A stretch of 64,000 nt of DNA. It comes from Crossaster papposus. Its lineage: Eukaryota; Echinodermata; Asteroidea; Velatida; Solasteridae. The notes beneath the pieces were generated by a model. That model did no database searches and was not told the origin of the DNA. It saw only the letters and a list, made by a program, of their open reading frames with translations. Position 1 is the first letter of the stretch; each line of letters opens with the position of its first letter. Location of the stretch: the NCBI GenBank assembly GCA_037893245.1, contig JBAIAA010000877.1, positions 248,001-312,000 of the forward strand. The letters are read 5' to 3'. Shown piece by piece: positions 20,586 through 45,436 of this stretch. A program made the translations under genes and the position numbers.

Positions 20586-20668
20586 GTCCCAAAAAATCAC
20601 AGGAATATGTGTGGTAATAATATCCTGTGGTATACTGTCCTGTGGTAATACCACAGGACATTTTTGTA
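20586..20668. mobile_element. Second partial CCTGTGGTA element end
   Basis: AATGTCCCAAAAAATCACAG followed by CCTGTGGTA/TACCACAGG repeats and terminating ACATTTTTGTAAGGG at about 20668. It corresponds to the right end of the family represented at 679-4091. No paired left end was found nearby, so it is a fragment. Confidence 0.55.
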
Positions 20669-20689
20669 AGGGTGGTCAGACTACACCAT

Positions 20690-22189
20690 TCATGTACATG
20701 TGATGTACAATGTACATGTATGTACATGTACATGATGTATCATGACATAGACAGTTAACGAACGATAACCTTAACCGGAGCTTAATGTTAAAGTTAACCC
20801 CCAAAACCACCAACACTATTGACTAGGCTAATTTTAAAATTCAAACAACTAATCATAATCATCCAATGGACATTTATAACTACAAACTAAACACACATTT
20901 TATCGAAAAATGACATTTTAAACCAAAAATCTCCTAAAGATTGACACAAATCTCTTTTTCGTTGACAAACCTCGCAGTCGCATGGCATAATGATATCTGG
21001 TACTGATCGTATACAATAACAACCTAGACTAAGACCGTTTTCCAAACACCAGCTTCATTTCGTTTGTGCTTCATTTATTCAACCTAACAATAATCTGAAG
21101 CCAAAGAGCCGGAGCCAGGGGTTTGGAAAACGGCCCTATGTCGCGAGGAACACAACCTCGTTATCATTGCTATGATCTTGCTGCGCCATGTTTTCCCATC
21201 ATGCCTTGGGCGATTAACGCGCTGATTAGCCAAAAATAGAGGGCGCTGTACCGTTTTCAACGTTTACAGGCACACTTCTTCACTGACTCACTCAATCTTT
21301 TTCGTCTGAAAAATTAACAACGCACTCTTAAATACAGTTTTTAAACAAATTTACTGCGTAACACAACAATTATAACAAAATTTACAAAATCATTTACAAA
21401 ATGTAATCTTACCTTTCACTACTTCACAAGTCAGTCCCAAATCCAAGCAGCCTGACAAGTGGACTACACTAGACGCGTATTTTGGGAGTGCGCCCAACAG
21501 CTAGTATTTATTTTGTTCCATTTGTTTAATTTCCAGTGCACGGATAACGGGATAAGCAACGATTTGTTATATGAGCGTCCCCCCTCATACAATTTTATAA
21601 CAATTTTTTGAACGTTTTATGCTAAAACTGTTTGAGCTTTAATAGTATAGAACATATCTATGAACAAAACCTAGTTGTAAAATACTTGATTGTGTTCAAT
21701 GAAGTTTCGAGCTAACATACTTACCCCTCTCGGACTCAAATATACTTCATCCTGTGAAAGGACATCAGTTGCATATTTTCATTGTCGCAGATCTCCAGTC
21801 ATTGCGTCCGGTACTGGATTATAAATATCATCAATGTTATTCACTTTCTGATGTCTGTTCAGTTCGGAGTGCCTTTTCTACGGTTTATGATATTGACACA
21901 TGCATGCACGCAGCTCAGAGGCAAGTGATCTAAATTATGTTCCAGTCGGTTTTCATCTGATCTCTAATACCTTTCCCTATTCGCGTCACATAAATGTTGA
22001 CATTTTCTGATGACCTGCAGCGATATTTACTGAGATGTAGAGAGCATTTACGTAATTAAACCTTGTCGCCAAGTCGCCATGCGTACCGTATGTCACCAAT
22101 CTGTAAATAATTACAAAAATGTACCTAAACATATCTAATTATATATTACCATGGAACATAAAAAGTGGTTTATTTTTTTACCCTAATAC
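20690..22189. other. Unannotated interval with a small MITE and a possible minus-strand first exon
   Basis: Contains TGTACATG-rich palindromic sequence at 20693-20740 and a 104-bp inverted repeat at 21033-21136. A minus-strand donor consensus (GTGAAAG then GTAAGATT) has its exon border at 21413. A segment at 21140-21260 is relatively GC-rich, with GCGCTGATTAG and AGAGGGCGCTG. No protein-coding frame recognised. Confidence 0.35.
21033..21136. mobile_element. 104-bp inverted-repeat MITE
   Basis: GACCGTTTTCCAAACACCAG at the left is complementary to the AGCCAGGGGTTTGGAAAACG region ending at 21136, with two to three mismatches. No target duplication confirmed. Confidence 0.55.
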
Positions 22190-23121
22190 ACTTAACAAAA
22201 ACATTTTAGAAATGTAAACGGTAACTTCATAAAATTGTATAGCGCCCTTTAGCGACAGGTTTAACAAATTGTTAAAATTAATAATCTGTTGATGTGTGTG
22301 TCGAAGTTTGCTGAAATCACTTTATAACCGGTGTATATAATCAGCTTCATGCTAAGAACATATTGAGAAGTAGAAATGTTGATGACGTCACCAAACCGGA
22401 AGTTACAATGAAAAGACCTTTAAACCTATAAAAATCGCTAAAAATTCCACCGCGATGGATATAATCTAGATTTTTGCTACAAATAGCAAAGGTAAGACAG
22501 CTCTCAAGCGTTTTGTTAATTACGTCACGATGACGTCATCAAGTGTCAGATTACAAGCAAACCAAATATTTATAGATTTAATCTTTGAAAATCAATAAAA
22601 AATCAACTGTAAGAGATCTGATTTAGATTTCTAAGGGAATTGCAAACTACATGCAAACCGGAAATGCCTTATAATTTAAAAGTGGAAAACGATGGGAACT
22701 TACTTTCAACGATGTTAGGCTCTGGCTAGGTTGTAAGTAACAACAAAGTTAACGGTAAATTCATAAAATGTTATAGTGCCCTCTAGCGGCATGTTGGCAA
22801 ATGTTACGTCATATTACGATTATATTTGAATTATTACGTGTTTAGACCTTTAAGCCATATCTCACCAACGAAACGTGCTAACATAACATACGTTTGTATT
22901 GTTAGGTGATAGATAGTTGCACAAAAAGTTCACAAACGTGTGACGTCATCGTTTTAATCAGTTTGGATTCATTTTAATCTGTTTAAATTAACTTAAATTC
23001 GTTTTCGATGATTTTAAATTATTTTGATGGTATAAAAGTTCAATTTTTGAAAAATTTAATCTAAAAAATTGCGAAAGCGAAAAAGCCCTATGTTCTGTTC
23101 CTCGAACAGACGTAGTTCTAG
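22190..23121 (+). mobile_element. Family A, 5'-truncated body with 3' end (unpaired)
   Basis: Starts abruptly inside the A body (AAACGGTAACTTCAT, then a degenerate GCGCCCTTTAGCG) and runs to the A 3' hairpin, with CTAG at 23118-23121. The missing 5' stack would have lain to the left. Confidence 0.75.
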
Positions 23122-24539
23122 TTTTTCTTTTCTTTTAGTAACCTAAACCCCATAGACTTTGTACACGTTTTTTCTGCCCGTCACTTTTAATAGAAAACAA
23201 AGTCGTATTTACATAAAACTTAACCCAGGTGAAGACCCCATAGTGAACTCGTGTCTCGCAGAAATACGTCATGGTGACGTCATCAGGGGTCACGTGACGT
23301 CATCTTAAAGGTGTAATTGATTTAATCTTTGAAAATCAATAACAAATCAACCGCAAAAGACCGAAACTTAATTTTTGTGGCAATAGATAGGATAATCCAG
23401 GATCTTAATTTTATCTCGCGTGCGTGAAATCACGTGACCCTTCCTTCCGGTCCAAACCGGAAGTGCCTTATAATTTAAAACTGAAAAATGATATGAACTT
23501 ACTTTCAACGATGTTAGTGTCTGGCTAGAATAAACTTTTCAAAATAATTACCGGCGACGTCATAACACGTTATAGCGCCCTCTAGCGGCAGGTTGAAAAA
23601 TTGTTAAAATGAATAATCTGTTGATGTGTGCAGCGAAGTTTGCTGAAATCACTTTATAACCGGTGTATATAATCAGCTTCGTGCTAAGAACATATTGAGA
23701 AAGATATTTATTGATGACGTCACCAAACCGGAAGTTACAATGAAAAGACCTTAAAACCTTAAAACGTCGCTTAAAAATCAACCGCGATAGATATAATCTA
23801 GATTTTTGCTTGAAATAGCAAAGTTAAGACAGCTCTCGATAGATAGAATAATTAAAGATCTTCATTTCAACTCATGTGCGTGAAATCACGTGACCCTTCC
23901 TTCCGGTCCAAACCGGAAGTGCCTTATAATTTAAAACTGAAAAATGATATGAACTTACTGTCAACGATGTTAGTGTCTGGCTAGAATAAACTTTTCAAAA
24001 TAATTACCGGCGACGTCATAACACGTTATAGCGCCCTCTAGCGGCAGGTTGAAAAATGGTTAAAATGAATAATCTGTTGATGTGTGTGGCGAAGTTTGCT
24101 GAAATCACTTTATAACCGGTGTATATAATCAGCTTCGTGCTAACAACATATTGAGAAAGAGATTTATTGATGACGTCACCAAACCGGAAGTTACAATGAA
24201 AAGACCTTAAAACCTTAAAACGTCGCTTAAAAATCAACCGCGATAGATATAATCCAGATGTTTGCTTTAAATAGCAAAGTTAAGACAGCTCTCGAGCTTT
24301 CTGTTAATTACGTCACGATGTTATGACGTCACTAGACCGGAAATTACAAATAAAAAACCTTTAAACATTTCTGAAAATTAACCGCGAGAGATATAATCCA
24401 ATTAATAATTTAAAATTTGCAGTTTTGAAAAAATTAAAGTAAAGAAATTTATTAAATGAAATTATAAATGTAATGAACAATACAACACAAAAATGCGAAA
24501 AAGCCATATGCTCTGTTCCTTGAACAGACATATCTCTAG
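23122..24539 (+). mobile_element. Family A body and 3' end (5' end not in window)
   Basis: T/C-rich head, TTTTAGTAACCTAAACCCC, full body, and 3' end with a TTGAACAG variant hairpin; CTAG at 24536-24539. Contains an internal duplication of the segment with the GCGCCCTCTAGCGGC motif (two copies at about 23574 and 24030). Confidence 0.78.
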
Positions 24540-25529
24540 TTTCTTCTTCTTCTTCTTCTTCTTTTTTTCTTTCTTTTCTTTTAGTAACCTAAACCCCATA
24601 GACTTTGTACACGTTTTTTCTGCCCGTCACTTTTAATAGAAAACAAAGTCGTATTTACATAAAACTTAACCCAGGTGAAGACCCCATAGTGAACTCGTGT
24701 CTCGCAGAAATACGTCATGGTGACGTCATCGGGGGTCACGTGACGTCATCTTAAAGGTGTAATTGATTTAATCTTTGAAAATCAATAACAAATCAACCGC
24801 AAAAGACCGAAACTTAATTTTTGTGGCAATAGATAGAATAATCTAGGATCTTGATTTTATCTCGCGTGCGTGAAATCACGTGACCCTTCCTTCCGGTCCA
24901 AACCGGAAGTGCCTTATAATTTAAAACTGAAAAATGATATGAACTTACTGTCAACGATGTTAGTGTCTGGCTAGAATAAACTTTTCAAAATAATTACCGG
25001 CGACGTCATAACACGTTATAGCGCCCTCTAGCGGCAGGTTGAAAAATGGTTAAAATGAATAATCTGTTGATGTGTGTGGCGAAGTTTGCTGAAATCACTT
25101 TATAACCGGTGTATATAATCAGCTTCGTGCTAACAACATATTGAGAAAGAGATTTATTGATGACGTCACCAAACCGGAAGTTACAATGAAAAGACCTTAA
25201 AACCTTAAAACGTCGCTTAAAAATCAACCGCGATAGATATAATCCAGATTTTTGCTTTAAATAGCAAAGTTAAGACAGCTCTCGAGCTTTCTGTTAATTA
25301 CGTCACGATAATATGACGTCACTAGACCGGAAATTACAAATAAAAAACCTTTAAACATTTCTGAAAATTAACCGCGAGAGATATAATCCAATTAATAATT
25401 TAAAATTTGCAGTTTTGAAAAAATTAAAGTAAAGAAATTTATTAAATGAAATCATAAATGTAATGAACAATACAACAACAAAATGCGAAAAAGCCATATG
25501 CTCTGTTCCTTGAACAGACATATCTCTAG
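24540..25529 (+). mobile_element. Family A body and 3' end (5' end not in window)
   Basis: (TTC)n-rich head, A body, and the same variant 3' hairpin (TTGAACAGACATATCTCTAG) as the preceding unit; CTAG at 25526-25529. The shared variant suggests these two units are close relatives. Confidence 0.78.
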
Positions 25530-26442
25530 TTTTTTTCTTTTTTTTTTTCCTTTTTTTTTTTTTTTCCACTTTCAGTGTTTTTACCCATAGGATTTACACA
25601 CGTTTGTTCTGCCAATACACTTTGGCACTTTGGTGAATCCAATTGACTTGAGACTTGGTGTACACTTAGACCTCCACCCACAGATGGTCCTAGAAGAAAT
25701 TTGGCTCGATTGCGTCATTCAAGGTCACGTGACGTCACGTTAAAGGTTTAATTTTCCCCATAGGTTTTGTACACGTTTTTCTTCAGACTATTGACTTTGG
25801 CACTTCGGTAAATCCGACCGACTTGAAACTTAGCATACACTTAGAACACCATCCCCAGATGTTTCTGAAAGAAAGTCGTCACGATTGCATCATTCAAGGT
25901 CACGTGACGTCACATTAAAGGTTCACATTTTTCTCCCATTGGTTTTGTACACGTTTTTCTTTAGACTATTGACTTTGACACTTTAGTAAATCCGATCGAC
26001 TTAAGACTTGGCACACACTTAGACCACCATCCACGGACGGCCCCAGAAGAAATTCGGCACGATTACGTCATTCAAGGTCACGGGGCGTCACGTTAAAGTT
26101 TCTATTTTTTCCCCATAGGTTTTGTACACGTTTTTCTTCAGACTATTGACTTTGACACTTTAGTAAATCCGACCGACTTGAAACTTGGCATACCCTTAGA
26201 ACATCACTCATATATGGTTCTGGAAGAAATTCGGCACGATTGCGTCATTCAAGGTCACGTGACGGCACGTTAAAGGTTCAATTTTTCCCCCATAGGTTTT
26301 GTACACGTTTTTCTTTAGACTATTGACTTTGACACTTTAGTAAATCTGATCGACTTAAGACTTGGCACACACAAAAGATAATCACACACATATTGAAAGA
26401 CACTCGAAACAGCTCTGTGTTTGTCCACAAACACATGTCTAG
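25530..26442 (+). mobile_element. Family B body and 3' end (5' end not in window)
   Basis: T-rich head, CCACTTTCAGTGTTTTTACCC, then five tandem monomers of about 175-185 bp, each with TTTGTACACG..TCATTCAAGGTCACG..TTAAAG. Ends with the B hairpin and CTAG at 26439-26442. Confidence 0.8.
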
Positions 26443-26582
26443 TTTTTTTTTTTTAGCTGTTTCGGTTTTTCACCGAAACAGCTATTGTTTTCGTTCTGGT
26501 TTTTTTTTTTTTTTTTAATTTTTTTTTTGGCTTTTTCGCAAATTTTGCGAAAAAGCCTTTGTTTTTGTTCTGATTTTTTTTT

Positions 26583-29500
26583 GGCTTTTTCGCAATTTTG
26601 CGAAAAAGCCTTTGTTTTTGTTCTGATTTTTTTTTTTCTTTTTTGGCTTTTTCGCAAGTTGCGAAAAAGCCTTTGTTTTTGTTCTGATTTTTTTTTTTCT
26701 TCTTCTTTTTTTCTTTTTTTCTTTTAGTAACCTAAACCCCATAGACTTTGTACACGTTTTTTTGCACAAGTACTTTTACCAGAAAACAAAGTTGTATTTT
26801 TATAAAACTTAACCCAGGTGACGACCCTATAGTGAACTCGTGTCTCGCAGAAATACGTCATGGTGACGTCATCAGGGGTCACGTGACGTCATCTTAAAGG
26901 TGTAATTGATTTAATCTTTGAAATTAAATAACAAATCAACCGCAAAAGACCGAAACTTGATTTTTGTGGCAACATATAGAATAATCCAGGATCTTCATTT
27001 TATCTCGTGTGCGTAACATCACGTGACCCTTTCTTCCGGTCCAAACCGGAAGTGCCTTATAATTTAAAACTGGAAAATGATATGAACTTACTTTCAACGA
27101 TGTTAGTGTCTGGCTAGAATAAACTTTTCAAAAAAATTACCGGCGACGTCATAATACGTTATAGCGCCCTCTAGCGGCAGGTTGAAAAATCGTTAAAATG
27201 CATAATTTGTTGATGTGTGTGGCGAAGTTTGCTGAATTCACTGTATAACCGGTGTATATAATCAGCTTCGTGCTAAGAACATATTGAAAAAGAGAAATAT
27301 TGATGACGTCACCAAACCGGAAGTTACAATGAAAAGACCTTTAAACCTTAAAAAGTCGCTTAAAAATCAACCGCGATAAATATATTCCAGATTTTTGCTT
27401 CAAATAGCAAAGTTAAGACAGCTCTTGAGCTTTCTGTTAATTACGTCACGATGACGTCATCAAGTGTCAGATTATAAGCAACCAAATATTTATAGATTTA
27501 ATCTTTGAAAATCAATATAAAATCAACTGTAAAAGATCTGATTTAGATTTTTAGGGGGATTGATAGATTAATCCATGGTCTTCATAATTTTATTACATGC
27601 AAACAAAACCTGACAATTCCTTCCGGTCCAAACCGGAAGTGCCTTATAACTTAAAAGTGGAAAACGATGTGAACTTACTTTTAACAATGTTAGGCGCTGG
27701 CTAGGTTGTAAGTAACAAAAAAGTTAACGGTGACTTCATAAAATGTTAAGGCGCCCTCTAGCGGCATGTTGACAAATGTTACGGCATATTACGATTATAT
27801 TTGAATTGTTACGTTTTTAGACCTTGAAGCCATATCTCAGCAACGGATCTTGTTAATATACCACCTCATTTTGTATTGTTAGGTTATAGATAGTTGCAAA
27901 CAAAGTTCACAAACGTGTGACGTCAACGTTTTAATCATTTTGAAATAATTGTAATCTGTTTAAATTAATTTAAATTCGTTTTTAATGATTTCAAATTGTT
28001 TTGATAGTAACAAAGTTCAAATTTTGAAAAAAAATATTCTAAAAAATTCCGAATACGAAAAAGCCCTATGTTCTGTTCCTCGAACAGACGTAGTTCTAGT
28101 TTTTCTTTTTTCTTTTAGTAACATAAACCCCATAGACTTTGTACACGTTTTTTTGCACAAGTACTTTTAATAGAAAACAAAGTTGTATTTTCATAAAACT
28201 TAACCCAGGTGAAGACCCTATAGTAAACTCGTGTCTCGCAGAAATACGTCACGGTGAGGTCATCAGGGGTCACGTGACGTCATATTAAAGGTGTAATTGA
28301 TTTAATCTTTGAAATTCAATAACAAATCAACCGTAAAAGACCGAAACTTGATTTTTGTGGCAATAGATAGAATAATCCAGGATCTTGATTTTATCTCACA
28401 TGTGTGAAATCACGTGACCCTTCCTTCCGGTCTAAACCGGAAGTGCTTCATAATTTGAAAGTGAAATATGATATGAACTTACTTTCAACGATGTTAGTGT
28501 CTGGCTACAATGTATTTTTCAAAAAAAATATTGGTGACGTCATAACATGTTATAGCGCCCTTTAGCGGCAGTTTGAATAATGGTTAAAATGAATAATCTG
28601 TTGATGTGTGTGGCGAAGTTTGCTGAAATCACTTTATAACCGGTGTATTTAATCAGCTTCATGCTAGGAACAAGTTGACGGGAAGAAAACATTATGACGT
28701 CACCAGACCGGAAGTTAGAATGAAAAGACTCCTTTTCCTTTGAAAATTCCTAAAAAATTGATCATGACAGATACAATCTTGATTTTTGCTCTAAAGGTTA
28801 GTGTAAAAGTAGTTCTCGAACTTTCCTGTGTTTTTTGGCAAACAACAAACTTGGACATACCCTGCGGCACCCTTGAAATTTAATCGTTTTGGCCTAAGCG
28901 CATAAAGCATTGACCCCTTATATGTGCATGGCACACGTATAATAGGGGTGTACATGCTTGTATATGTACGTACGTATACACTGATAGTGTACTATGCATT
29001 GAGCGAATGTATTACTACTGACATCGTACGTGCATGCAAATGTACGCTCACCCAAGAGGACACTAGCCGCCAACAAGCGAAACAGGATGACGTCATCAAA
29101 TTGCCTATGGGGAAGGGCACCGTGTGCGACAGGTAGGTAAACAGGCTCTCGGCTACGCAGAATCCAATCCCATAGATTTTGTAAACGTTGTTTGCACAAT
29201 TCAAAGCACTTTTAACGAAAAACAAAGTCGTATTTCCATAAACCTTAACACCCAGGTAAAAACCCTATAGTAAACTCGTGTCTCGCAGAAATACGTCATG
29301 GTTACGTCATCAGGGGTCACGTGACGTCATCTTAAAGGTGTAATTGATTTAATCTTTGAAAATCAATAACAAATCAACCGCAAAAGACCGAAACTTAATT
29401 TTTGTGGCAATAGATAGGATAATCCAGGATCTTAATTTTATCTCGTGTGCGTGAAATCACGTGACCCTTCCTTCCGGTCCAAACCGGAAGTGCCTTATAA

Positions 29501-29844
29501 TTTAAAAGTGAAAAATGATATGAACTTACTTTCAACGCTGTTAGTGTCTGGCTAGATTGTATTTAACAACAAAAATACCGGCGACGCCATAACATGTTAT
29601 AGCGCCCTCTAGCGGCAAGTTGAAAAATGGTTAAAATTAACATAACACCTCATTTTGTGTTGTTAGGTGATAGATAGTTGCACAAAAGGTTCAGAAACGT
29701 GTGACGTCATCGTTTTAATCAGTTTGAATTTATTTTAATCTGTTTAAATTAACTTAAATTCGGTTTTTTTGAAAACAAATACTCTAAAAAAATGCGAAAG
29801 CGGAAAAGCCCTATGTTCTGTTCCTTGAACAGACGTAGTTCTAG
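26583..29844 (+). mobile_element. Family A element containing one nested A copy
   Basis: The 5' hairpin at 26583-26610 pairs with the 3' CTAG at 29841-29844. Its own body is 28100-29840. This is a long variant that includes the GGCACACGTATAATAGGGG segment at about 28930. Confidence 0.75.
26645..28099 (+). mobile_element. Uninterrupted family A element (1.45 kb)
   Basis: Innermost of the first nest: 5' hairpin 26645-26671 (GGCTTTTTCGC/GCGAAAAAGCC), T/C tract, TTTTAGTAACCTAAACCCC, body with CRE, E-box, ETS and CTCF-like motifs, and 3' hairpin CTGTTCCTCGAACAG with CTAG at 28096-28099. A good short-form reference copy. Confidence 0.82.
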
Positions 29845-31256
29845 TTTTCTTTTTTCTTCTTCTTTTTTTTTCTTTTAGTAACCTAAACCCCATAGACTTT
29901 GTACACGTTTTTTTGCACAAGTACTTTTACCAGAGAACAAAGTCGTATTTCCATAAAACTTAACCCAAGTGAAGACCCTATAGTAAGCTCGTGCCTAGCC
30001 GACATACGACATGATGACGTCATCAGGGGTCACGTGACGTCATCTTAAAGGTGTAATTGATTTAATCTTTGAAAATCAATAACAAATCAACCGCAAAAGA
30101 CCGAAACTTGATTTTTGTGGCAACAGATAGAATAATCCAGGATCTTCATTTTATCCCATGTGCGTGAAATCACGTGACCCTTCCTTCCGGTCTAAACCGG
30201 AAGTGCCTTATAATTTAAAAGTGATAAATGATATAAACTTACTTTTAACGATGTTAGTGTCTGGCTAGATTGTATTTTTCAAAAAAAATACCGGCGACGT
30301 CATAACATGTTATAGCGCCCTCTAGCGGCAGGTTAAAAAATGTTAAAATGAATATTCGGTTGATGTGTGTAGCGAAGTTTGCTGAAATAACTTTATAACC
30401 AGTGTATATAATCAGCTTCATGCTAAGACCATATTGGGAAGGGGAAATATTTATGACGTCACCAAACCGGAAGTTACAATGAAAAATCCTTTAAACCTTT
30501 AAAAATCGCTTAAAAATCAACCGTGATAGATATAATCCAGATTTTTGCTTCAAATAGCAAAGTTAAGACAGCTCTCGAGCTTTCTGTTAATTACGTCACG
30601 ATGACGTCATCAAGTGTCAAATTACAATAAACCAAATATTTCTAGATATAATCTTTGAAAATCAATACAAAATCAACTGTAAGAGATCTGATTTAGATTT
30701 TTAAGGGAATTGATAGACTAATCCATGGTCTTCATAATTTGTATTGGATGCAAAAAGACCCGACCCTTCCTTCCGGTCCAAACCGGAAGTGCCTTATAAT
30801 TTAAAAATCGAAAACGATGTGAACTTACTTTCAACGATGTTAGGCGCTGGCTAGGTTGTAAGTAACAACAAAGTCAACGGTGACTTCATACAATGTTATA
30901 GCGCCCTCTAGCGGCATGTTGACAAATGTTACAACATATTACGATTATATTTAAATTATTACGTTTTAAGACCTTTAAGCCATATCTCAGCAACGGAACG
31001 TGGTAACATAACACATATGTTTGTATTGTTAGTTGATGGATATTTTCACAAATAGTTCACAAACGTGTGACGTCATCGTTTTAATCAGTTTGGATTCATT
31101 TTAATCTGTTTAAATTAACTTAAATTCGTTTTCAATAATTTTAAATTGTTTTGATGGTATAAAAGTTCAATTTTTGAAAAATTTAATCTAAAAAATTGCG
31201 AATGCGAAAAAGCCCTATGTTCTGTTCCTCGAACAGACGTAGTTCTAGTTTTTTTT

Positions 31257-31299
31257 AGCTGTTTCGGTTTTTCACCGAAACAGCTTTTGTTTTCGTTAA

Positions 31300-31339
<40 letters not shown>

Positions 31340-32035
31340 CTTTTGTTCTCCATAGGATTTGTACACGTTTGTTCAGACAATACACTTTGACACTTTGGTA
31401 AATCCGATGGACTTGAGACTTGGCATACACTTAGACAACCACCCAAGGACGGTCCTAGAAGAAATTCGTCGCGATTACGTCATTCAAGGTCACGTGACTT
31501 CGCGTTAAAGGTGAAATTTTTCCCATAGGTTTTGTACACGTTTTTCTTCAGACTGTTGAATTTGACACTTTGGTAAATCCGACCGACTTGAAACTTGCCA
31601 TACACTCAGAACACCACCACCAGATGTTTCTGAAAGAAATTCAGCACGATTGCGTCATTCAAGGTCACGTGACGTCAAGTTAAAGGTTTAATTCGTCCCC
31701 CATAGGTTTTGTACACGTTTTCTTTAGACTCTTGACTTTGACACTTAGTTAATCCGATCGACTTGAGACTTGGCACACACATAGACCACCATCCACAGAC
31801 GGTCGTAGGAGAAATTTGGCACGATTACGTCACTCAAGGTTACGGGGTGTCACGTTAAAGGTTCAATTTCCCCCCATAGGTTTTGTACACGTTTTTCTTT
31901 AGACTATTGACTTTGACACTTTAGTAAATCTGATCGACTTGAGACTTGGCACACACAAAAGATTACCACATACATATTGAAAGTAATTTTAGACACTCGA
32001 AACAGCTCTGTGTTTGTCCACAAAACATGTCTAGT
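31257..32035 (+). mobile_element. Uninterrupted family B element (0.78 kb)
   Basis: The 5' hairpin 31257-31285 (AGCTGTTTCGG..CCGAAACAGCT) is followed by a pure T run of more than 30 bases, about four 180-bp monomers, and a B 3' hairpin with CTAG at 32032-32035. The 3' hairpin has lost one base pair (CCACAAAACATG). It is the reference B copy. Confidence 0.82.
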
Positions 32036-33195
32036 TTTTTTTCTTTTTCTCCTTCAGACTTTTTCCCATAGGGTTTGTACACGTTTTTTGTTCGGACAAT
32101 ACACTTTGACACTTTGGTAAATGCGATCGACTTGAAACTTGGCATACACTTAGACCACCACCCACAGATGATCCTAGAAGAAATTTGTCACGATTACGCC
32201 TTTTGTGGTCACGTGACGTCACGTTAAAGGTTCAATTTTTCCCCATAGGGTTTGTACACGTTTTTCTTCAGACTATTGACTTTAATACTTTGGTAAATGC
32301 GATTGACTTGAAACTTAGCACACACCTCGACCACCATCCCCAGGAGGTCCAAGAGAAAAATCGTGATGATGACGTCATCGTGGGTCATGTGACGTCAAAT
32401 TAAAGGTGCAGTTTTTGGGACCCTCTATCTCTGAAAGTACATGTCCGATTGGGGACAAACTTGATATGCAAGTATCCTGAGATGTGTTATAGACGAAAAT
32501 TAAGATGACATGAAGATGACGTCATCGGGTGTCATGTGACGTCACATTAAAGGTGCAATTTTTCCCCATAGGGTTTGTACACGTTTTTCCTCAGACTATT
32601 GATTTTGACACTTTGGTAAATCCCATCGACTCGAGACTTAGTACACACCTCGATCACCATCCATAGGAGGGCCACAAGGAAAATCGTCATGATGACGTCA
32701 TCGTGGGTCATGTGACGTCACTTTAAAGGTGTAGTTTTTAATACCCTCTATCTCTGGAAGTAAAGGTCTGATTGGGGTCAATCTTGGTATGCAAGTATTC
32801 CAGGATGTGTTATAGACGAAAATTAAGATGACGTCATGATGACGTCATCGTGGGTCATGTGACGTCACATTTAAGGTGTAGTTTTTAAGACCCTCTATCT
32901 CTGGAAGTACAAGTCCGATTGGGGTCAAACTTGGCATGCAAGTATTCAAGTGTGTGTTATAGACACAAATTAAAATAACATCATGATGACGTCATCGTTG
33001 GTCATGTGACGTCTCCTTAAAGGTGTAGTTTTCCCCAAAGGATTTGTACACGTTTTTTCCAACCAATATATCTTTGGCACCTGGGTAAATAAGATTGACT
33101 ACAGATTTGCGACACACTTAGACCACCACCCACTTATTACAAAACAAATTAGACACCCGAAACAGCTCTGTGTTTGTCCACAAACACATTTCTAG

Positions 33196-33751
33196 TTTTT
33201 TTTTCCTTTTTTTTTTTTTTTCCACTTTCAGTGTTTTTACCCATAGGATTTACACACGTTTGTTCTGCCAATACACTTTGGCACTTTGGTAAATCCAATC
33301 GACTTGAGACTTAGTATACACTTAGACCTCCACCCACAGATGGTCCTAGAAGAAATTTGGCTCGATTGCGTCATTCAAGGTCACGTGACGTCACTTTAAA
33401 GGTTTAATTTTCCCCATAGGTTTTGTACACGTTTTTCTTCAGACTATTGACTTTGGCACTTCAGTAAATCCGATCGACTTAAAACTTGGCATACACTTAG
33501 AACACCACCCCCAGACGGCCCTAGAAGAAATTTGGCACGATTACGTCATTCAAGGTCACGGGGCGTCACGTTAAAGTTTCATTTTTTTCCCATAGGTTTT
33601 GTACACATTTTTCTTTAGACTATTGCCTTTGACACTTTAGTAAATCTGATCGACTTGAGACTTGGCACACACAAAAGACCACCACACACATATTGAAAGT
33701 AATTTTAGACACTCGAAACAGCTCTGTGTTTGTCCACAAACACATGTCTAG
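33196..33751 (+). mobile_element. Family B body and 3' end (5' end not in window)
   Basis: T-tract, CCACTTTCAGTG head, three monomers, and B 3' end with CTAG at 33748-33751. Under the nesting model this is the tail of an older B whose 5' hairpin lay left of 22190. Confidence 0.75.
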
Positions 33752-34477
33752 TTTTCCTTTTTTTTTTTTCCACTTTCAGTGTTTTTACCCATAGGATTTA
33801 CACACGTTTGTTCTGCCAATACACTTTGGCACTTTGGTAAACCCAATCGACTTGAGACTTGGTATACACTTAGACATCCATCCACAGATGGTCCTAGAAG
33901 AAATTTGGCTCGATTGCGTCATTCAAGGTCACGTGACGTCACGTTAAAGGTTAAATTTTCCCCATAGGTTTTGTACACGTTTTTCTTCAGACTATTGACT
34001 TTGGCACTTCGGTAAATCCGACCGACTTGAAACTTGGCATACACTTAGAACACCACCCCCAGATGTTTCTGAAAGAAATTCGGCACGATTGCGTCATTCA
34101 AGGTCACGTGACGTCACATTAAAGGTTCACATTTTTCTCCCATTGGTTTTGTACACGTTTTTCTTTAGACTATTGACTTTGACACTTTAGTAAATCTGAT
34201 CGACTTGAGACTTGGCACACACTTAGACCACCATCAACATACGGCCCTAGAAGAAATTCGGCACGATTACGTCATTCAAGGTCACGCGGCGTCACGTTAA
34301 AGTTTCTATTTTTTCCCATAGGTTTTGTACACGTTTTTCTTTAGACTATTGCCTTTGACACTTTAGTAAATCTGATCGACTTGAGACTTGGCACACACAA
34401 AAGACCACCACACACATATTGAAAGTAATTTTAGACACTCGAAACAGCTCTGTGTTTGTCCACAAACACATGTCTAG
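33752..34477 (+). mobile_element. Family B body and 3' end (5' end not in window)
   Basis: Same organisation with four monomers; CTAG at 34474-34477, followed directly by eight T and a new B 5' hairpin. Confidence 0.75.
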
Positions 34478-34642
34478 TTTTTTTTAGCTGTTTCGGTTTT
34501 TCACCGAAACAGCTTTTGTTTTCGTTAAAGTTTTTTTGGCTTTTTCGCAAATTTTGCGAAAAAGCCTTTGTTTCTGTTCTGATTTTTTGGCTTTTTCGCA
34601 AATTTTGCGAAAAAGCCTTTGTTTCTGTTCTGATTTTTTTTT

Positions 34643-37050
34643 GGCTTTTTCGCAAATTTTGCGAAAAAGCCTTTGTTTTTGTTCTGATTTTTTTTTTTCT
34701 TCTTCTTCTTTTTTCTTTTCTTTTAGTAACCTAAACCCCATAGACTTTGTACACGTTTTTTCTGCCCGTCACTTTTAATAGAAAACAAAGTCGTATTTCC
34801 ATAAAACTTAACCCAGGTGAAGACCCCATAGTGAACTCGTGTCTCGCCGAAAAACGTAATGGTGACGTCATCAGGGGTCACGTGACGTCATCTTAAAGGT
34901 GTAATTGATTTAATCTTTGAAAATCAATAACAAATCAACCGCAAAACACCGAAACTTAATTTTTGTGGCAATAGATAGAATAATCCAGGATCTTAATTTT
35001 ATCTCGTGTGCGTGAAATCACGTGACCCTTCCTTCCGGTCTAAACCGGAAGTGCCTCATAATTTGAAAGTGAAAAATGATATGAACTTACTTTCAACGAT
35101 GTTAGTGTCTGGCTACAATGTATTTTTCAAAAAAAATATTGGTGACGTCATAACATGTTATAGCGCCCTCTAGCGGCAGTTTGAAAAATTGTTAAAATGA
35201 ATAATCTGTTGATGTGTGTGGCGAAGTTTGCTGAAATCACTTTATAACCGGTGTATTTAATCAACTTCATGCTAGGAACAAGTTGACGGGAAGAAAAAAT
35301 TATGACGTCACCAGACCGGAAGTTAGAATGAAAAGACTCCTTTTCCTTTGAAAATTCCTAAAAAATTAATCATGACAGATACAATCTTGATTTTTGCTCT
35401 AAAGGTTAGTGTAAAAGTAGTTCTCGAACTTTCCTGTGTTTTTTGGCAAACAACGAACTTGGACATACCCTGCGGCACTCTTGAAATTTAATCGTTTTGG
35501 CCTAGGCGTATAAAGCATTGACCCCTTACGTGTGCATGGCACACGTATAATAGGGGTGTACATGCTTGTATATGTACGTACGTATACACTGATAGTGTAC
35601 TATGCATTGAGCGAATGTATTACTACTGACATCGTACGTGCATGCAAATGTACGCTCACCCAAGAGGACACTAGCCGCCAACAAGCGAAACAGGATGACG
35701 TCATCAAATTGCCTATGGGGAAGGGCGCCGTGTGCGACAGGTAGGTAAACAGGCTCTCGGCTACGCAGAATCCAATCCCATAGATTTTGTAAACGTTGTT
35801 TGCACAATTCAAAGCACTTTTAACGAAAAACAAAGTCGTATTTCCATAAAACTTAACACCCAGGTGAAAACCCTATAGTAAACTCGTGTCTCGCAGAAAT
35901 ACGTCATGGTTACGTCATCAGGGGTCACGTGACTTCATCTTAAAGGTGTAATTGATTTAATCTTTGAAAATCAATAACAAATCAACCGCAAAAGACCGAA
36001 ACTTAATTTTTGTGGCAATAGATAGGATAATCCAGGATCTTAATTTTATCTCGCGTGCGTGAAATCACATGACCCTTCCTTCCGGTCCAAACCGGAAGTG
36101 CCTTATAATTTAAAACTGAAAAATGATATGAACTTACTTTCAACGATGTTAGTGTCTGGCTAGAATAAACTTTTCAAAATAATTACCGGCGACGTCATAA
36201 CACGTTATAGCGCCCTCTAGCGGCAGGTTGAAAAATTGTTAAAATGAATAATCTGTTGATGTGTGTAGCGAAGTTTGCTGAAATCACTTTATAACCGGTG
36301 TATATAATCAGCTTCGTGCTAAGAACATATTGAGAAAGATATTTATTGATGACGTCCATAAACCGGAAGTTACAATGAAAAGACCTTAAAACCTTAAAAC
36401 GTCGCTTAAAAATCAACCGCGATAGATATAATCCAGATTTTTGCTTGAAATAGCAAAGTTAAGACAGCTCTCGATAGATAGAATAATTAAAGATCTTCAT
36501 TTCAACTCATGTGCGTGAAATCACGTGACCCTTCCTTCCGGTCCAAACCGGAAGTGCCTTATAATTTAAAACTGAAAAATGATATGAACTTACTTTCAAC
36601 GATGTTAGTGTCTGGCTAGAATAAACTTTTCAAAATAATTAAAAAAGTAAAAAACGATGTGAACTTACTTTCAACGATGTTAGGAGCTGGCTAGATTGTA
36701 AGTAACAAAAATGTTAACAGTGACTTCATAAAATGTTAAAGCGCCCTCTAGCGTCATGTTGTCAAATGTTACGTCATATTACGATTATATTTGAATTATT
36801 ACGTTTTTAGACGTTGAAGGCATATCTCAGCAAAGGATCGTGTTAACATAACACCTCATTTTGTGTTGTTAGGTGATAGATAGTTGCACAAAAAGTTCAG
36901 AAACGTGTGACGTCATCGTTTTAATCAGTTTGAATTTATTTTAATCTGTTTAAATTAACTTAAATTCGGTTTTTTTGAAAACAAATACTCAAAAAAAATG
37001 CGAAAGCGGAAAAGCCCTATGTTCTGTTCCTTGAACAGACGTAGTTCTAG
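34643..37050 (+). mobile_element. Uninterrupted family A element (2.4 kb, internally rearranged)
   Basis: The 5' hairpin 34643-34671 pairs with CTAG at 37047-37050. The body is a long variant with internal duplication of the CTCF-like segment (35162, 36209, 36741) and an abrupt junction at about 36640, where AATAATTAAAAAAGTAAAAAACG departs from the usual order. Confidence 0.75.
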
Positions 37051-37067
37051 TTTTCTTCTTCTTCTTT

Positions 37068-38875
37068 GGCTTTTTCGCAATTTTGCGAAAAAGCCTTTGT
37101 TTTTGTTCTGATTTTTTTTTTTCTTCTTCTTTTTTTTTTTTTTTTTCTTTTCTTTTAGTAACCTAAACCCCATAGACTTTGTACACGTTTTTTCTGCCCG
37201 TCACTTTTAATCGAAAACAAAGTCGTATTTACATAAAACTTAACCCAGGTGAAGACCCCATAGTGAACTCGTGTCTCGCAGAAATACGTCATGGTGACGT
37301 CATCAGGGGTCACGTGACGTCATCTTAAAGGTGTAATTGATTTAATCTTTGAAAATCAATAACAAATCAACCGCAAAAGACCGAAACTTAATTTTTGTGG
37401 CAATAGATAGAATAATCCAGGAACTTGATTTTATCTCGCGTGCGTAAAATCACGTGACCCTTCCTTCCGGTCTAAACCGGAAGTGCCTCATAATTTGAAA
37501 GTGAAAAATGATATGAACTTACTTTCAACGGTGTTAGTGTCTGGCTACAATGTATTTTTCAAAAAAAAATTGGTGACGTCATAACATGTTATAGCGCCCT
37601 CTAGCGGCAGTTTGAATAATGGTTAAAATGAATAATCTGTTGATGTGTGTGGCGAAGTTTGCTGAAATCACTTTATAACCGGTGTATTTAATCAGCTTCA
37701 TGCTAGGAACAAGTTGACGGGAAGAAGAAATTATGACGTCACCAGACCGGAAGTTAGAATGAAAAGACTCTTTTTCCTTTGAAAATTCCTAAAAAATTAA
37801 ACTTGACAGATACAATCTTGATTTTTGCTCTAAAGGTTAATGTAAAAGTAGTTCTCAAACTTCCCTGTGTTTTGGGGCAAAAAACGAACTTGAACATACC
37901 CTGCGGCACCCTTGAAATGTAATCGTTTTGGCCTAGGTGCAAAAAGCATTGACCCCTTACGTGTGCGTGCCACACGTATAATATACATGCTAGTACATGT
38001 ACGTATACACCGATAGTGCATTATGTATTGAGCGAATGTATCACCACTGACATCGTTCGTGCAAGCACATTTACGCTCACCCAAGATGACACTAGCCGCC
38101 AACCTGTGAAACAGGATGACGTCATCAAGTTGCCCATGAGGAAGGGCGCCGCGTACGACAGGTAGGTAAACACGCTTTCGGCTACGCAGAATCCAACCCC
38201 GTAGACTTTGTAAACGTTGCTTGCACAATTCAAAGCACTTTTAACGGAAAAACAAAGTCGTATTTCCATAAACTCGACCCAGGTGAAGACCCAATAGTGA
38301 ACTCCAGTCTCGCCGACAGACACCACGAGGAAGACGTCATCAGGCCCACGTGACCTTATCTTAAAGGTGCAATTGATTTAATCTTGGAAAATCAATAAAA
38401 CATCAACCGCAAAAGACCGAAACTTGAATTTTGTGGCAATTAATCGAATAATCCAGGATCTTCATTTTATTCTAATTTTATTCCACTTAAAAAATTCACA
38501 CTTCCTTTGATCAGATTGACTGCAGACTTGGCACAGACCAATATCATAGTGACAATATGTGAATTGACACGTATTGTCGTGGTGACGTCATCAGGGGGCA
38601 TGTGACGTCATGAACTTTGATTTTGTTTACATGCGTTTATATTCGTTTTATTTTATTTTCAATTCTTTAAAAATGTTTTTAATAGTTTAAATTCGTTCAA
38701 AATCATTTAAATTTGATTTAATCTGTTTAAATTCATTTTAATCTGTTTCAATTCAGTTAAATTCGTTTTGAATGTTTTTAAGGTATAATAGTTTAATTTC
38801 TTGAAAACTAAATCTAAACAAAATGTACATGCGAAAAAGCCCTATGTTCTGTTCCTCGAACAGACGTAGTTCTAG
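37068..38875 (+). mobile_element. Uninterrupted family A element (1.8 kb, long variant)
   Basis: The 5' hairpin 37068-37095 is followed by T/TTC tract, body with the long-variant segment near 37970, and 3' end CTAG at 38872-38875. It sits in the T/C tract just after the 3' end of the previous A element, and is the only A insertion of the array not stacked on another A 5' hairpin. Confidence 0.8.
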
Positions 38876-41800
38876 TCTTCTTCTTCTTCTTCTTCTTCTT
38901 TTTTCTTTTCTTTTAGTAACCTAAACCCCATAGACTTTGTACACGTTTTTTCTGCCCGTCACTTTTAATAGAAAACAAAGTCGTATTTACATAAAACTTA
39001 ACCCAGGTGAAGACCCTATAGTGAACTCGTGTCTCGCAGAAATACGTCATGGTGACGTCATCAGGGGTCACGTGACGTCATCTTAAAGGTGTAATTGATT
39101 TAATCTTTGAAATTCAATAACAAATCAACCGCAAAAGACCGAAACTAAATTTTTGTGGCAATAGATAGAATAATCCAGGATCTTAATTTTATCTCGTGTG
39201 CGTGAAATCACGTGACCCTTCCTTCCGGTCTAAACCGGAAGTGCCTCATAATTTAAAAGTGAAAAATGATATGAACTTACTTTCAACGATGTTAGTGTCT
39301 GGCTACAATGTATTTTTCAAAAAAAATATTGGTGACGTCATAACATGTTATAGCGCCCTCTAGCGGCAGTTTGAAAAATTGTTAAAATGAATAATCTGTT
39401 GATGTGTGTGGCGAAGTTTGCTGAAATCACTTTATAACCGGTGTATTTAATCAGCTTCATGCTAGGAACAAGTTGACGGGAAGAAAAAATTATGACGTCA
39501 CCAGACCGGAAGTTAGAATGAAAAGACTCCTTTTCCTTTGAAAATTCCTAAACAATTAAACCTGACAGATACAATCTTGATTTTTGCTCTAAAGGTTAAT
39601 GTAAAAGTAGTTCTCGAACTTCCCTGTGTTTTGGGGCAAAAAACGAACTTGAACATACCCTGCGGCACCCTTGAAATGTAATCGTTTTGGCCTAGGCGCA
39701 TAAAGCATTGACCCCTTATATGTGCCTGGCACACGTATAATAGGGGTGTACATGCTTGTATATGTACGTACGTATACACTGATAGTGTACTATGCATTGA
39801 GCGAATGTATCACTACTGACATCGTACGTGCATGCAAATGTACGCTCACCCAAGAGGACACTAGCCGCCAACAAGCGAAACAGGATGACGTCATCAAATT
39901 GCCTATGGGGAAGGGCGCCGTGTGCGACAGGTAGGTAAACAGGCTCTCGGCTACGCAGAATCCAATCCCATAGACTTTGTGAACGTTGTTTGCACAATTC
40001 CCAGCACTTTTAACGAAAAACAAAGTCGTATTTCCATAAAACTTAACCCAGATGAAGACCCTATAGTAAACTCGTGTCTCGCAGACATACGTCATGGTTA
40101 CGTCGTCAGGGGTCACGTGACGTCATCTTAAAGGTGCAATTGATTTAATCTTTAAAAATAAATAACAAATCAACCACAAAAGACCGAAACTTGATTTTTG
40201 TGGCAATAGATATAATAATCCAGAATCTTCATTTTATCTCGTGTGCTTAAAATCACGTGACCCTTCCTTCCGGTCCAAACCGGAAGTGCCTCATAATTTG
40301 AAAGTGAAAATGATATGAACTTACTTTCAACGATGTTAGTGTCTGGCTAGAATAAACTTTTCCAAAAAAAATCAGGCGACGTCATAATATGTTATAGCGC
40401 CCTCTAGCGGCAGGTTGAAAAATGGTTAAAATGAATAATCTGTTGATGTGTGTGGCGAATTTTGCTGAAACCACTTTATAACCGGTGTATATAATCAGCT
40501 TCATGCTTAGACCATATTGGGAAGGAGAAATATTTATGACGTCACCAAACCGGAAGTTACAATGAAAAATCCTTTAAACCTTAAACAATCGCTTACAAAT
40601 CAACCACTATAGATATAATCCAGATTTTTGCATCAGATAGCAAAGTAAAGACAGCTCTCGAGCTTTCTGTTAATTATGTCACGATGACGTCATCAAATGT
40701 CAGATTACAAGCAACCAAATATTTCTAGATTTAATCTTTGAAAATCAATATAAAATCAACTGTAAGAGATCTGATTCAGATTTTTAAGGGAATTGATAGA
40801 TTAATCCATGGTCTTCATAATTTGTATTACATGCAAAAAAACCTGACCCTTCCTTCCGGTCTAAACCGGAAGTGCATTATAATTTAAAAGTGGAAAACGA
40901 TGGGAACTTACTTTCAACGATGTTAGGCGCTGGCTAGGTTGTAAGTAACAAACAAGTTAACGGTGACTTCTTAAAATGTTATAGCGCCCTCTAGCGGCTT
41001 GTTGACAAATGTTACATCATATTACGATTACATTTGAATTATTACGTTTTTCGACCTTTAAGTCATATCTCAGCAACGGAACGTGCTAACATAACATACG
41101 TTTGTATTGTTAGGTGATAGATAGTTGCACAAAAAGTTCACAAACGTGTGACGTCATCGTTTTAATCAGTTTGGATTCATTTTAATCTGTTTAAATTAAC
41201 TTAAATTAGTTTTCGATGATTTTAAATTATTTTGATGGTATACAAGTTCAATTTTTGAAAAATTTAATCTATAAAATTGCGAAAGCGAAAAAGCCCTATG
41301 TTCTGTTCCTCGAACAGACGTAGTTCTAGTTCTAGTTTTTTCTTCTTCTTCTTCTTCTTCTTCTTCTTTTTTTCTTTTAGTAACCTAAACTCCATAGACT
41401 TTGTACACGTTTTTTCTGCCAGTCACTTTTAATAGAAAACAAAGTCGTATTTCCATAAAACTTAACCCAGGTGAAGACCCTATAGTGAACTCGTGTCTCG
41501 CCGAAAAACGTAACGGTGACGTCATCAGGGGTCACGTGACGTCATCTTAAAAGTGTAATTGATTTAATCTTTGAAAATCAATAACAAATCAACCGCAAAA
41601 GACCGAAACTTAATTTTTGTGGCAATAGATAGAATAATCCAGGATCTTAATTTTATCTCGTGTGCGTGAAATCACGTGACCCTTCCTTCCGGTCTAAACC
41701 GGAAGTGCCTCATAATTTGAAAGTGAAAAATGATATGAACTTACTTTCAACGATGTTAGTGTCTGGCTACAATGTATTTTTCAAAAAAAATATTGGTGAC

Positions 41801-44700
41801 GTCATAACATGTTATAGCGCCCTCTAGCGGCAGTTTAAAAAATTGTTAAAATGAATAATCTGTTGATGTGTGTGGCGAAGTTTGCTGAAATCACTTTATA
41901 ACCGGTGTATTTAATCAGCTTCATGCTAGGAACAAGTTGACGGGAAGAAAAAATTATGACGTCACCAGACCGGAAGTTAGAATGAAAAGACTCCTTTTCC
42001 TTTGAAAATTCCTAAAAAATTAATCCTGACAGATACAATCTTGATTTTTGCTCTAAAGGTTAATGTAAAAGTAGTTCTCGAACTTCCCTGTGTTTTGGGG
42101 CAAAAAACGAACTTGAACATACCCTGCGGCACCCTTGAAATGTAATCGTTTTGGCCTAGGTGCAAAAAGCATTGACCCCTTACGTACGTGTGTATGGCAC
42201 ACGTATAATATACATGCTAGTACATGTACGTATACACTGATAGTGTATTATGTATTGAGCGAATGTATCACCACTGACATCGTTCGTGCAAGCACATGTA
42301 CGCTCACCCAAGAGGACACTAGCCGCCAACCTGTGAAACAGGATGACGTCAACAAATTGCCCATGGGAAGGGCGCCGCGTACGACAGGTAGGTAAACACG
42401 CTTTCGGCTACGCAGAATCCAACCCCGTAGACTTTGTAAACGTTGCTTGCACAATTCAAAGCACTTTTAACGGAAAAACAAAGTCGTATTCCCATAAACT
42501 TGACCCAGGTGAAGACCCAATAGTGAACTCCAGTCTCGCCGACAGACACCACGAGGAAGACGCCATCAGGGCCACGTGACCTTATCTTAAAGGTGCAATT
42601 GATTTAATCTTTAAAAATAAAAAACAAATCAACCACAAAAGACCGAAACTTGATTTTTGTGGCAATAGATAGAATAATCCAGAATCTTCATTTTATCTCG
42701 TGTGCTAAAATCACGTGACCCTTCCTTCCGGTCCAAACCGGAAGTGCCTCATAATTTGAAAGTGAAAAATGATATGAACTTACTTTCAACGATGTTAGTT
42801 TCTGGCTAGAATAAACTTTTCCAAAAAAAATCAGGCGACGTCATAATATGTTATAGCGCCCTCTAGCGGCAGGTTGAAAAATGGTTAAAATGAATAATCT
42901 GTTGATGTGTGTGGCGAAGTTTGCTGAAACCACTTTATAACCGGTGTATATAATCAGCTTCATGCTTAGACCATATTGGGAAGGAGAAATATTTATGACG
43001 TCACCAAACCGGAAGTTACAATGAAAAATCCTTTAAACCTTAAACAATCGCTTAAAAATCACCCGCTATAGATATAATCCAGATTTTTGCATCAGATAGC
43101 AAAGTAAAGACAGCTCTCGAGCTTTCTGTTAATTACGTCACGATGACGTCATCAAATGTCAGATTACAAGCAACCAAATATTTATAGATTTAATCTTTGA
43201 AAATCAATATAAAATCAACTGTTAGAGATCTGATTTAGATTTTTAAGGGAATTGATAAATTAATCCATGGTCTTCATAATTTGTATTACATGCAAAAAAA
43301 ACTGACCCTTCCTTCCGGTCCAAACCGGAAGTGCATTATAATTTAAAAGTGGAAAACGATGTAAACTTACTTTCAACGATGTTAGGCGCTGGCTAGGTTG
43401 TAAGTAACAAACAAGTTAAGGGTGACTTCTTAAAATGTTATAGCGCCCTCTAGCGGCATGTTGACAAATGTTACGTCATATTACGATTATATTTGAATTA
43501 TTACGTTTTTCGACATTTAAGTCATATCTCAGCAACGGAACGTGCTAACATAACATACGTTTGTATTGTTAGGTGATAGATAGTTGCACAAAAAGTTCAC
43601 AAACGTGTGACGTCATCGTTTTAATCAGTTTGGATTCATTTTAATCTGTTTAAATTAACTTAAATTCGTTTTCGATGATTTTAAATTATTTTGATGGTAT
43701 AAAAGTTCAATTTTTGAAAAATTTAATGTAAAAAATTGCGAAAGCGAAAAAGCCCTATGTTCTGTTCCTCGAACAGACGTAGTTCTAGTTTTTTCTTTTT
43801 TTTTTTCCTTTTTTTTTTTTTTTCCACTTTCAGTGTTTTTACCCATAGGATTTACACACGTTTGTTCTGCCAATACACTTTGGCACTTTGGTGATTCCAA
43901 TCTACTTGAGACTTGGTGTACACTTAGACCTGCACCCACAGATGGTCCTAGAAGAAATTTGGCTCGATTGCGTCATTCAAGGTCACGTGACGTCACGTTA
44001 AAGGTTTAATTTTCCCCATAGGTTTTGTACACGTTTTTCTTCAGACTATTGACTTTGGCACTTCGGTAAATCAGACCGACTTGAAACTTAGCATACACTT
44101 AGAACACCACCCCCAGATGTTTCTGAAAGAAAGTCGGCACGATTGCATCATTCAAGGTCACGTGACGTCACATTAAAGGTTCACATTTTTCTCCCATTGG
44201 TTTTGTACACGTTTTTCTTTAGACTATTGACTTTGACACTTTAGTACATCCGATCGACTTAAGACTTGGCACACACTTAGACCACCATCCACGGACGGCC
44301 CTAGAAGAAATTCGGCACGATTACGTCATTCAAGGTCACGGGGCGTCACGTTAAAGTTTCTATTTTTTCCCCATAGGTTTTGTACACGTTTTTCTTCAGA
44401 CTATTGACTTTGACACTTTAGTAAATTCGACCGACTTGAAACTTGGCATACCCTTAGAACATCACTCATATATGGTTCTGGAAGAAATTAGGCACGATTG
44501 CGTCATTCAAGGTCACGTGACGGCACGTTAAAGGTTCAATTTTTCCCCCATAGGTTTTGTACACGTTTTTCTTTAGACTATTGACTTTGACACTTTAGTA
44601 AATCTGATCGACTTAAGACTTGGCACACAGAAAAGATCATCACACACATATTGAAAGACACTCGAAACAGCTCTGTGTTTGTCCACAAACACATGTCTAG

Positions 44701-45436
44701 TTTTTTTTTTTTCCTTTTTTTTTTTTTTCCACTTTCAGTGTTTTTACCCATAGGATTTACACACGTTTGTTCTGCCAATACACTTTGGCACTTTGGTGAT
44801 TCCAATCGACTTGAGACTTGGTGTACACTTAGACCTCCACCCACAGATGGTCCTAGAAGAAATTTGGCTCGATTGCGTCATTCAAGGTCACGTGACGTCA
44901 CGTTAAAGGTGAAATTTTTCCCATAGGTTTTGTACACGTTTTTCTTCAGACTATTGACTTTGGCACTTCGGTAAATCCGACCTACTTGAAACTTGGCATA
45001 CACTTAGAACACCATCCCCAGATGTTTCTGAAAGAAAGTCGGCACGATTGCGTCATTCAAGGTCACATGACGTCACATTAAAGGTTCACATTTTTCTCCC
45101 ATTGTTTTGTACACGTTTTTCTTTAGACTATTGACTTTGACACTTTAGTAAATCCGATCGACTTGAGACTTGGCACACACTTAGACCACCATCCACAGAC
45201 GGCCCTAGAAGAAATTCGGCACGATTACGTCATTTAAGGTCACGGGGCGTCACGTTAAAGTTTCTATTTTTTTCCCATAGGTTTTGTACACGTTTTTCTT
45301 TAGACTATTGCCTTTGACAGTTTAGTAAATCTGATCGACTTGAGACTTGGCACACACAAAAGACCACCACACACATATTGAAAGTAATTTTAGACACTCG
45401 AAACAGCTCTGTGTTTGTCCACAAACACATGTCTAG
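44701..45436 (+). mobile_element. Family B body and 3' end, right limit of the array
   Basis: T-tract, CCACTTTCAGTG head, four monomers, B hairpin and CTAG at 45433-45436, followed by TTATATTTTG and non-repeated DNA. Under the nesting model this is the oldest, outermost element. Confidence 0.78.

Follow-up and report, generated by a model that had tools for sequence, protein, structure and literature searches.

Nested HINE-like elements in a sea star array, very probably inserted in one direction at their own T-tracts

In this work we analysed a 64-kb window of the Crossaster papposus genome (positions 248001–312000 of contig C877, JBAIAA010000877.1, in a 1.02-Gb assembly), in which two families of transposable elements, called A and B here, fill an array that spans window positions 22190–45436. 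The array very probably consists of nested elements resembling HINEs (non-autonomous Helentrons) that inserted one-way at their own T-tracts, with some duplication afterwards. We count ten 5′ hairpins and, as 3′ ends, seventeen hairpins followed by CTAG; all of them lie on the + strand. The strand of a hairpin was assigned from its linker, the bare hairpins being palindromic and readable on both strands, and once oriented in this way no hairpin or 3′ end was found on the minus strand of the window.

The anatomy of the elements can be read directly in the array. The 5′ end consists of TT, a perfect hairpin (stem GGCTTTTTCGC in A, AGCTGTTTCGG in B), a linker of about 15 nt and a T/CTT tract, which in A is T10–11 followed by C. 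The 3′ end consists of a repeat of one arm of the 5′ hairpin (GCGAAAAAGCC, 34 nt from the end, in A; CGAAACAGCT, 28 nt from the end, in B), followed by a second hairpin and CTAG. The 5′ edge was set at TT by an empty site presented below. B bodies carry central repeats of about 177 bp, and the whole array contains one open reading frame (ORF) of at least 120 amino acids (aa), 132 aa long.

When 5′ hairpins are taken as opening and hairpin-CTAG ends as closing brackets, a strict last-in-first-out (LIFO) parse pairs all 10 hairpins with an end of the same family, which reproduces the ten type-matched pairs proposed in the initial annotation. The structure was called perfectly balanced there; this holds for the openers (10/10) and not for the closers, 10 of 17 being paired. 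A full type match with no unclosed opener was obtained in 366 of 200000 shuffles when the types of both sets were shuffled, in 1669 of 200000 when only opener types were, and in 171 of 200000 when the whole order was. The hairpin-CTAG scan gave 16 of the 17 3′ ends; the 17th (b2), which has an imperfect hairpin, was placed apart and ends at 32034, one nucleotide from the position first given (32035). The nested array is confirmed as observed, with the following components:

26453..33195, + strand: element B, outermost of nest 1, TT and hairpin h1 (26455) with 3′ end b3 (33195), interrupted by the A nest and by element h5-b2
26527..31248, + strand: element A, hairpin h2 (26529) with end a6 (31248), tract split T9 / T4, sum 13
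26581..29844, + strand: element A, hairpin h3 (26583) with end a5 (29844), tract cut within its T/C part (T11 C T6 / T5 C T6 C T4)
26643..28099, + strand: element A, innermost and unbroken, hairpin h4 (26645), tract GA T11 CTTCTTC, body a4, end 28099
31255..32034, + strand: element B, unbroken, hairpin h5 (31257), T36 tract, body b2, end 32034
34484..44700, + strand: element B, outermost of nest 2, hairpin h6 (34486) with end b6 (44700)
34536..43788, + strand: element A, hairpin h7 (34538) with end a10 (43788), tract split T6 / T6, sum 12
34587..41329, + strand: element A, hairpin h8 (34589) with end a9 (41329), tract cut by two inserted elements (T9 / T4 CTT.. / CTT..)
34641..37050, + strand: element A, unbroken, hairpin h9 (34643), tract GA T11 CTTCTTCTTC, body a7, end 37050
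37066..38875, + strand: element A, unbroken, hairpin h10 (37068), body a8, end 38875
22190..25529, + strand: A bodies a1 (left end cut), a2 and a3 without 5′ hairpin, ends 23121, 24539 and 25529
25530..26442, + strand: B body b1 without 5′ hairpin, end 26442, about 1.3–1.4% from b6
33196..34477, + strand: B bodies b4 and b5 without 5′ hairpin, ends 33751 (b4) and 34477 (b5)
44701..45436, + strand: B body b7 without 5′ hairpin, the final end of the array, close to b5

The element at 37066–38875 is bordered on both sides by a CTT-repeat tract that is part of an A tract, which shows that it inserted inside the tract of another A copy. A recent duplication of one B-A-A-A block into the other is ruled out, as linkers, loops and bodies differ between the two stacks; corresponding bodies are 88.0% (a4-a7), 92.0% (a5-a9), 90.5% (a6-a10) and 78.0% (b3-b6) identical. 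A link between hairpin variants and body variants was also considered and is uninformative, because the two hairpins that carry the C variant were bound to pair with a9 and a10 anyway. Two irregularities were seen in A copies: the 3′ end of one is doubled at 41326–41335 (CTAGTTCTAG), perhaps a trace of imprecise end-joining, and body a2 contains a 456-bp internal duplication (23383–24295).

Split tracts are a second line of evidence. When a copy is split, its tract begins after the outer hairpin and resumes beyond the CTAG of the inserted copy. Of 22 intact A tracts, 15 have T11 and 7 have T10 before the first C, and the expected sum of the two halves is the intact tract plus the TT that is added at the empty site. 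Among 22 pairs collected by a script without hand choice (left run of at most 11), the left and right T-runs add up to 13 in nine, a result as extreme being reached in 47 of 20000 shuffles in which the right halves were dealt anew among pairs, and to 12–14 in 14, which 149 of 20000 shuffles reach. The script was run because an earlier hand-copied set of 20 pairs had left out L051, L057 and L058, which are evaluable. In that set, the 17 pairs with a left run of at most 11 gave a sum of 13 in ten (1 of 20000 shuffles; 24 for the 12–14 range, 279 for the variance), and for all 20 pairs the corresponding numbers of shuffles as extreme were 0, 6 and 13912. The scripted test is weaker than the hand-copied version and is the one reported here. 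It left aside the C447 and C3 tandem arrays described below, and dropped 26 hairpins, for which the left remnant was not pure T (12), the end of the inserted copy was unseen (6), no next feature was found (at most 6) or the linker was unrecognized (2). It also scores two rows below the hand reading, at C1153 5620, where a G interrupts the right run, and at C433 1584, where a degenerate hairpin was missed.

Nested insertion also predicts that nests of only two copies occur, and such small nests were seen outside the window. At three fetched loci (L049, L056 and L060), two hairpins followed by two ends are flanked on both sides by non-array DNA. The sequence flanking L060 belongs to a repeat: at five further positions the two flanks occur with a single TT between them. 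Two of these empty sites were read out (flank identities of 94.1/91.5% and 97.0/98.1%), and both are contiguous exactly at the 3895-bp insert of L060. The outermost hairpin and the final 3′ end are therefore the two limits of a single insertion at a single TT. Compared with the empty site, the filled site gains one TT, and the insert is bordered by TT at either end; the added TT may have been either duplicated or carried in. Insertion at TT with no longer target duplication is seen at this one site. By the empty sites alone, the nest could also have moved in as one composite piece.

Relatedness among copies was measured on the first 650 nt of 48 A bodies. Of the 39 bodies that have others in their own locus, 34 find their nearest sampled relative at another locus; a same-locus nearest relative is seen for five, and 3.0 are expected from label shuffles. 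The median distance is 0.112 for inner-outer pairs and 0.108 for all pairs. In the window, the nearest relative lies elsewhere for six of nine examined A bodies, and a4 differs by 0.3% from a copy on C13 and by 6.5% from the most similar body in the array. By these distances most A neighbours are unrelated copies, as would be expected of separate arrivals. The pattern of a tandem array, in which neighbours are closest relatives, is absent from the A bodies overall and is found for a2/a3 (1.5% apart), b1/b6 (1.3%) and b5/b7 (2.1%), each other's nearest sampled relatives, B bodies having been compared with twelve from other loci only.

The architecture recurs on many contigs of the genome, where the initial annotation had proposed to look for the same stacked 5′ ends. 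Exact patterns matched 1592 A 3′ ends, 401 A-A stacked-hairpin junctions, 104 A-to-B junctions (a B hairpin straight after an A-type linker) and 73 B-to-A candidates, the last pattern being limited to short tracts and including some matches unlike B linkers; the reversed-pattern control gave 0 in each case. The layering suggested by the window, with B never inside A, is ruled out by the 104 A-to-B junctions. Features on both strands occur in only one of 37 fetched sources, which are not all independent. Over these sources 74 of 80 closed pairs are type-matched, a figure that is trivial for most loci, as they hold A only; the loci outside the window are not all type-matched or balanced. Among individual stacks, eight A hairpins lie within about 400 bp at L058 (C139:316400–321800), overlapping stack matches extend over about 840 bp at C130:511083–511921, and a further B-A hairpin junction is present on the same strand about 10 kb to the left of the window (C877:238090–238120).

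We propose the following mechanism. Insertion would go to TT in a T-rich strand, in one orientation, and every copy would offer a ready target, its own T/CTT tract about 15 nt behind the 5′ hairpin. A new copy landing in the tract of a resident would leave a bare 5′ hairpin on one side and a headless body on the other, and would bring a fresh tract for the next insertion. Repeated landing would pile up 5′ hairpins and, behind them, the bodies in reverse order, everything pointing the same way. The mover would be a Helentron protein and the fixed orientation would be due to strand choice at the T-tract; later recombination or slippage would have duplicated some bodies and a few hairpins. The proposal that elements inserted in one orientation in the T-tract beside a resident 5′ hairpin is supported by the split sums, the independence of bodies, the balanced nests and the empty sites. 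The strong self-targeting that was proposed with it is most simply explained as T-tract targeting by an element that carries a tract; a preference for its own kind beyond that is more than the data show. On the + strand of the window, 17 T-runs of at least 10 lie in the array and two outside it, and the minus strand has none, so that an element seeking long T-tracts would mostly encounter its own kind here. It is possible, if rather doubtful, that the internal T-tract evolved as a landing pad that draws new copies into old ones.

Several observations weigh against the nesting interpretation. Seven of the 17 3′ ends are unpaired (A 23121, 24539 and 25529; B 26442, 33751, 34477 and 45436), openers are in surplus at L053, and C162 has one A body too few or one A hairpin too many. 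Eight of the 22 scripted tract sums fall outside 12–14 (5, 7, 9, 9, 10, 10, 10 and 25), three further pairs with left runs of 25–26 give 28, 28 and 40, and the sums show no smaller variance than the shuffles (12703 and 15781 of 20000). When the known tandem arrays of C447 and C3 are added, 26 of 61 bodies have their nearest relative in their own locus, which is to be expected of tandem arrays. The expectation that inner copies are younger than outer ones was not confirmed by divergence: the inner copy is nearer to a relative elsewhere in 13 of 22 pairs and farther in eight (p=0.12), and a repeat with 75 bodies gave 12 versus 9 (p=0.15), one of these nine contrary pairs, at L049, being an overlap artefact in that L010 holds the same copy. 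Distance to the nearest relative elsewhere is a weak proxy for age, few of the copies being sampled (48 and 75 bodies, against 1592 exact ends), and dating by private substitutions in the window is unusable owing to too few copies and to subfamily structure.

The initial annotation held that stacked hairpins and headless bodies are hard to explain by head-to-tail duplication. Nesting is supported, but duplication does occur in this genome, contributes alongside nesting and is likely for some of the unpaired ends. At C447 there are four copies of a 3.86-kb two-body unit where C1153 has one; C447:167349–190610 and C1153:83555–106813 are two versions of one locus with stretches of about 98–99% identity, either haplotypes or a segmental duplicate, and the same tract parse gives 18 and 5 in C447 where C1153 gives 13 and 13 (one of these counts an interrupting G). 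At C3:1912946–1927599, units of about 4.3–4.6 kb, each comprising three stacked A hairpins and B material, are repeated in a higher-order tandem array. At C162 two adjacent hairpins both have T26 tracts. Since b1/b6, b5/b7 and a2/a3 are nearest sampled relatives, local duplication is the best explanation for some of the seven orphan ends; for others, the array may have lost its left end, at which a1 is truncated. In its full form, the duplication model states that unequal exchange or slippage between T-tracts multiplied hairpins and body-CTAG units separately, the type match being a matter of chance counts. The C447 expansion, the C3 array, the three pairs of close relatives and the T26 neighbours and extra A hairpin of C162 all speak for it. 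As the sole process it is nevertheless improbable: A copies next to each other are mostly unrelated, the balanced two-in-one nests lie between non-array flanks, an empty site places the two outer ends at a single TT, and the tract halves fit. For L060 and for most A members it is already refuted as the only process.

Rolling-circle read-through or composite transposition, by which units with several ends would have been copied elsewhere and inserted together, appears less probable still. Such a process has been proposed for FoHeli and for maize Helitrons with multiple termini (PMC5148889 and PMC3288121, in the sections available), terminator bypass could explain surplus closers, and the surplus of openers over closers at L053 also fits. 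A fixed junction (TTTCGTTCTG TTTGTTTTA ahead of the A hairpin) recurs in 17 of the 73 B-to-A matches, which might reflect the multiplication, as one block, of a composite that has an additional 5′ end or of an A copy lying in another repeat. However, read-through would yield neither a type-matched LIFO order nor one tract split between a hairpin and a distant body, and the window has surplus closers with no surplus opener. Finally, the array is highly repetitive, and an assembler might have invented the order of near-identical repeats, but this is scarcely credible given the same architecture on many contigs, among them two-member nests spanning about 4 kb in which the copies diverge by about 10%.

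The nested elements look like HINEs of a sea star. According to the available sections of PMC4067079 and PMC7492417, HINE/DINE-1 elements are non-autonomous Helentrons with a palindromic 5′ subterminal repeat, a copy of it near the 3′ end and a 3′ palindrome, a microsatellite inside the 5′ end, central tandem repeats and a TT or T-rich insertion site. The array elements have the subterminal palindrome, its 3′ copy and the 3′ palindrome, the microsatellite, the central repeats (in B) and the TT site. For mite families, as far as the available description goes, the 3′ copy of the repeat lies about 38–60 nt from the end, slightly farther than the 34 and 28 nt found here. The elements differ in that their internal microsatellite is T-rich and is a recurrent insertion target of further copies, and in that the available sections of these two papers describe clusters with no ordered nests among them. 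A canonical Helitron, which starts with 5′ TC and inserts between A and T (contrasted in the available part of PMC4067079), is ruled out: the elements start with TT and a hairpin and sit between T and T-rich sequence, and only the 3′ CTAG fits. The window also contains a Helentron-type unit with two long ORFs on the minus strand (8039–17176), one matching Helitron_like_N, DUF6570, OTU, PHD and Herpes_teg_N, the other PIF1 helicase and Exo_endo_phos. A and B ends were looked for beside this coding unit and were not found, which is why a Helentron mover is no more than inferred. Palindromic CCTGTGGTA / TACCACAGG repeats (600–4100 and 20000–20700) flank the unit at a distance. A search of viral contigs for the hairpin-linker motif gave 0 matches. 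Elsewhere in the window, an alternating CATG/CACGTG-type simple repeat of about 400 bp (18590–19000) is open in several frames by chance, and a C1q-collagen gene (57876–58745) has its best matches in Patiria miniata, with up to 78% identity.

Self-inserted Helitrons with stacked 5′ ends are already known, and what is new here is the built-in target and the T arithmetic. The comparisons that follow are limited to the available sections of the papers cited. In Fusarium, short duplicated 5′ termini of FoHeli, a Helitron2-like element, are read as a copy inserted near the 5′ end of another (PMC5148889), a similar stacking of 5′ termini through self-insertion; these are single cases of multiple 5′ termini with one 3′ terminus, whereas we find ten paired elements, hundreds of junctions, a defined target tract and a T count. 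Multiple termini of maize Helitrons come from nested Helitrons, and insertion occurs near other Helitrons, but a built-in target tract is absent from that description (PMC3288121). SaTar MULE arrays of guayule and rice were built, as here, by targeting of element-associated microsatellites, but they belong to another superfamily and are uniformly non-nested (PMC5907723). The rolling-circle-amplified Helitron arrays of plants are clusters of incomplete elements (Xiong et al. 2016, via PMC12628747), truncated tandem copies of which many have multiple 5′ ends and a single 3′ end (PMC12628747); the sea star array, in contrast, has more 3′ than 5′ ends, and its A members are mostly unrelated copies. 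Within the open-licence papers and the search terms used, we found no description of a Helentron that repeatedly targets the tract inside its own copies.

If nesting built the array, headless bodies and bodiless heads, which are usually deemed debris, would arise in a single step, and the rule that the two parts of a divided tract add up to the intact length plus two T would provide a way to read nested rolling-circle transposons. Nested arrays would offer a natural ordered record of insertion, and they suggest how a transposon may turn into an oriented, satellite-like array, which unequal exchange can then amplify, as in C447 compared with C1153. Were the tract indeed a landing pad, insertion into it would spare host genes and fix the orientation of the copies, and the array would be a last-in-first-out record of transposition.

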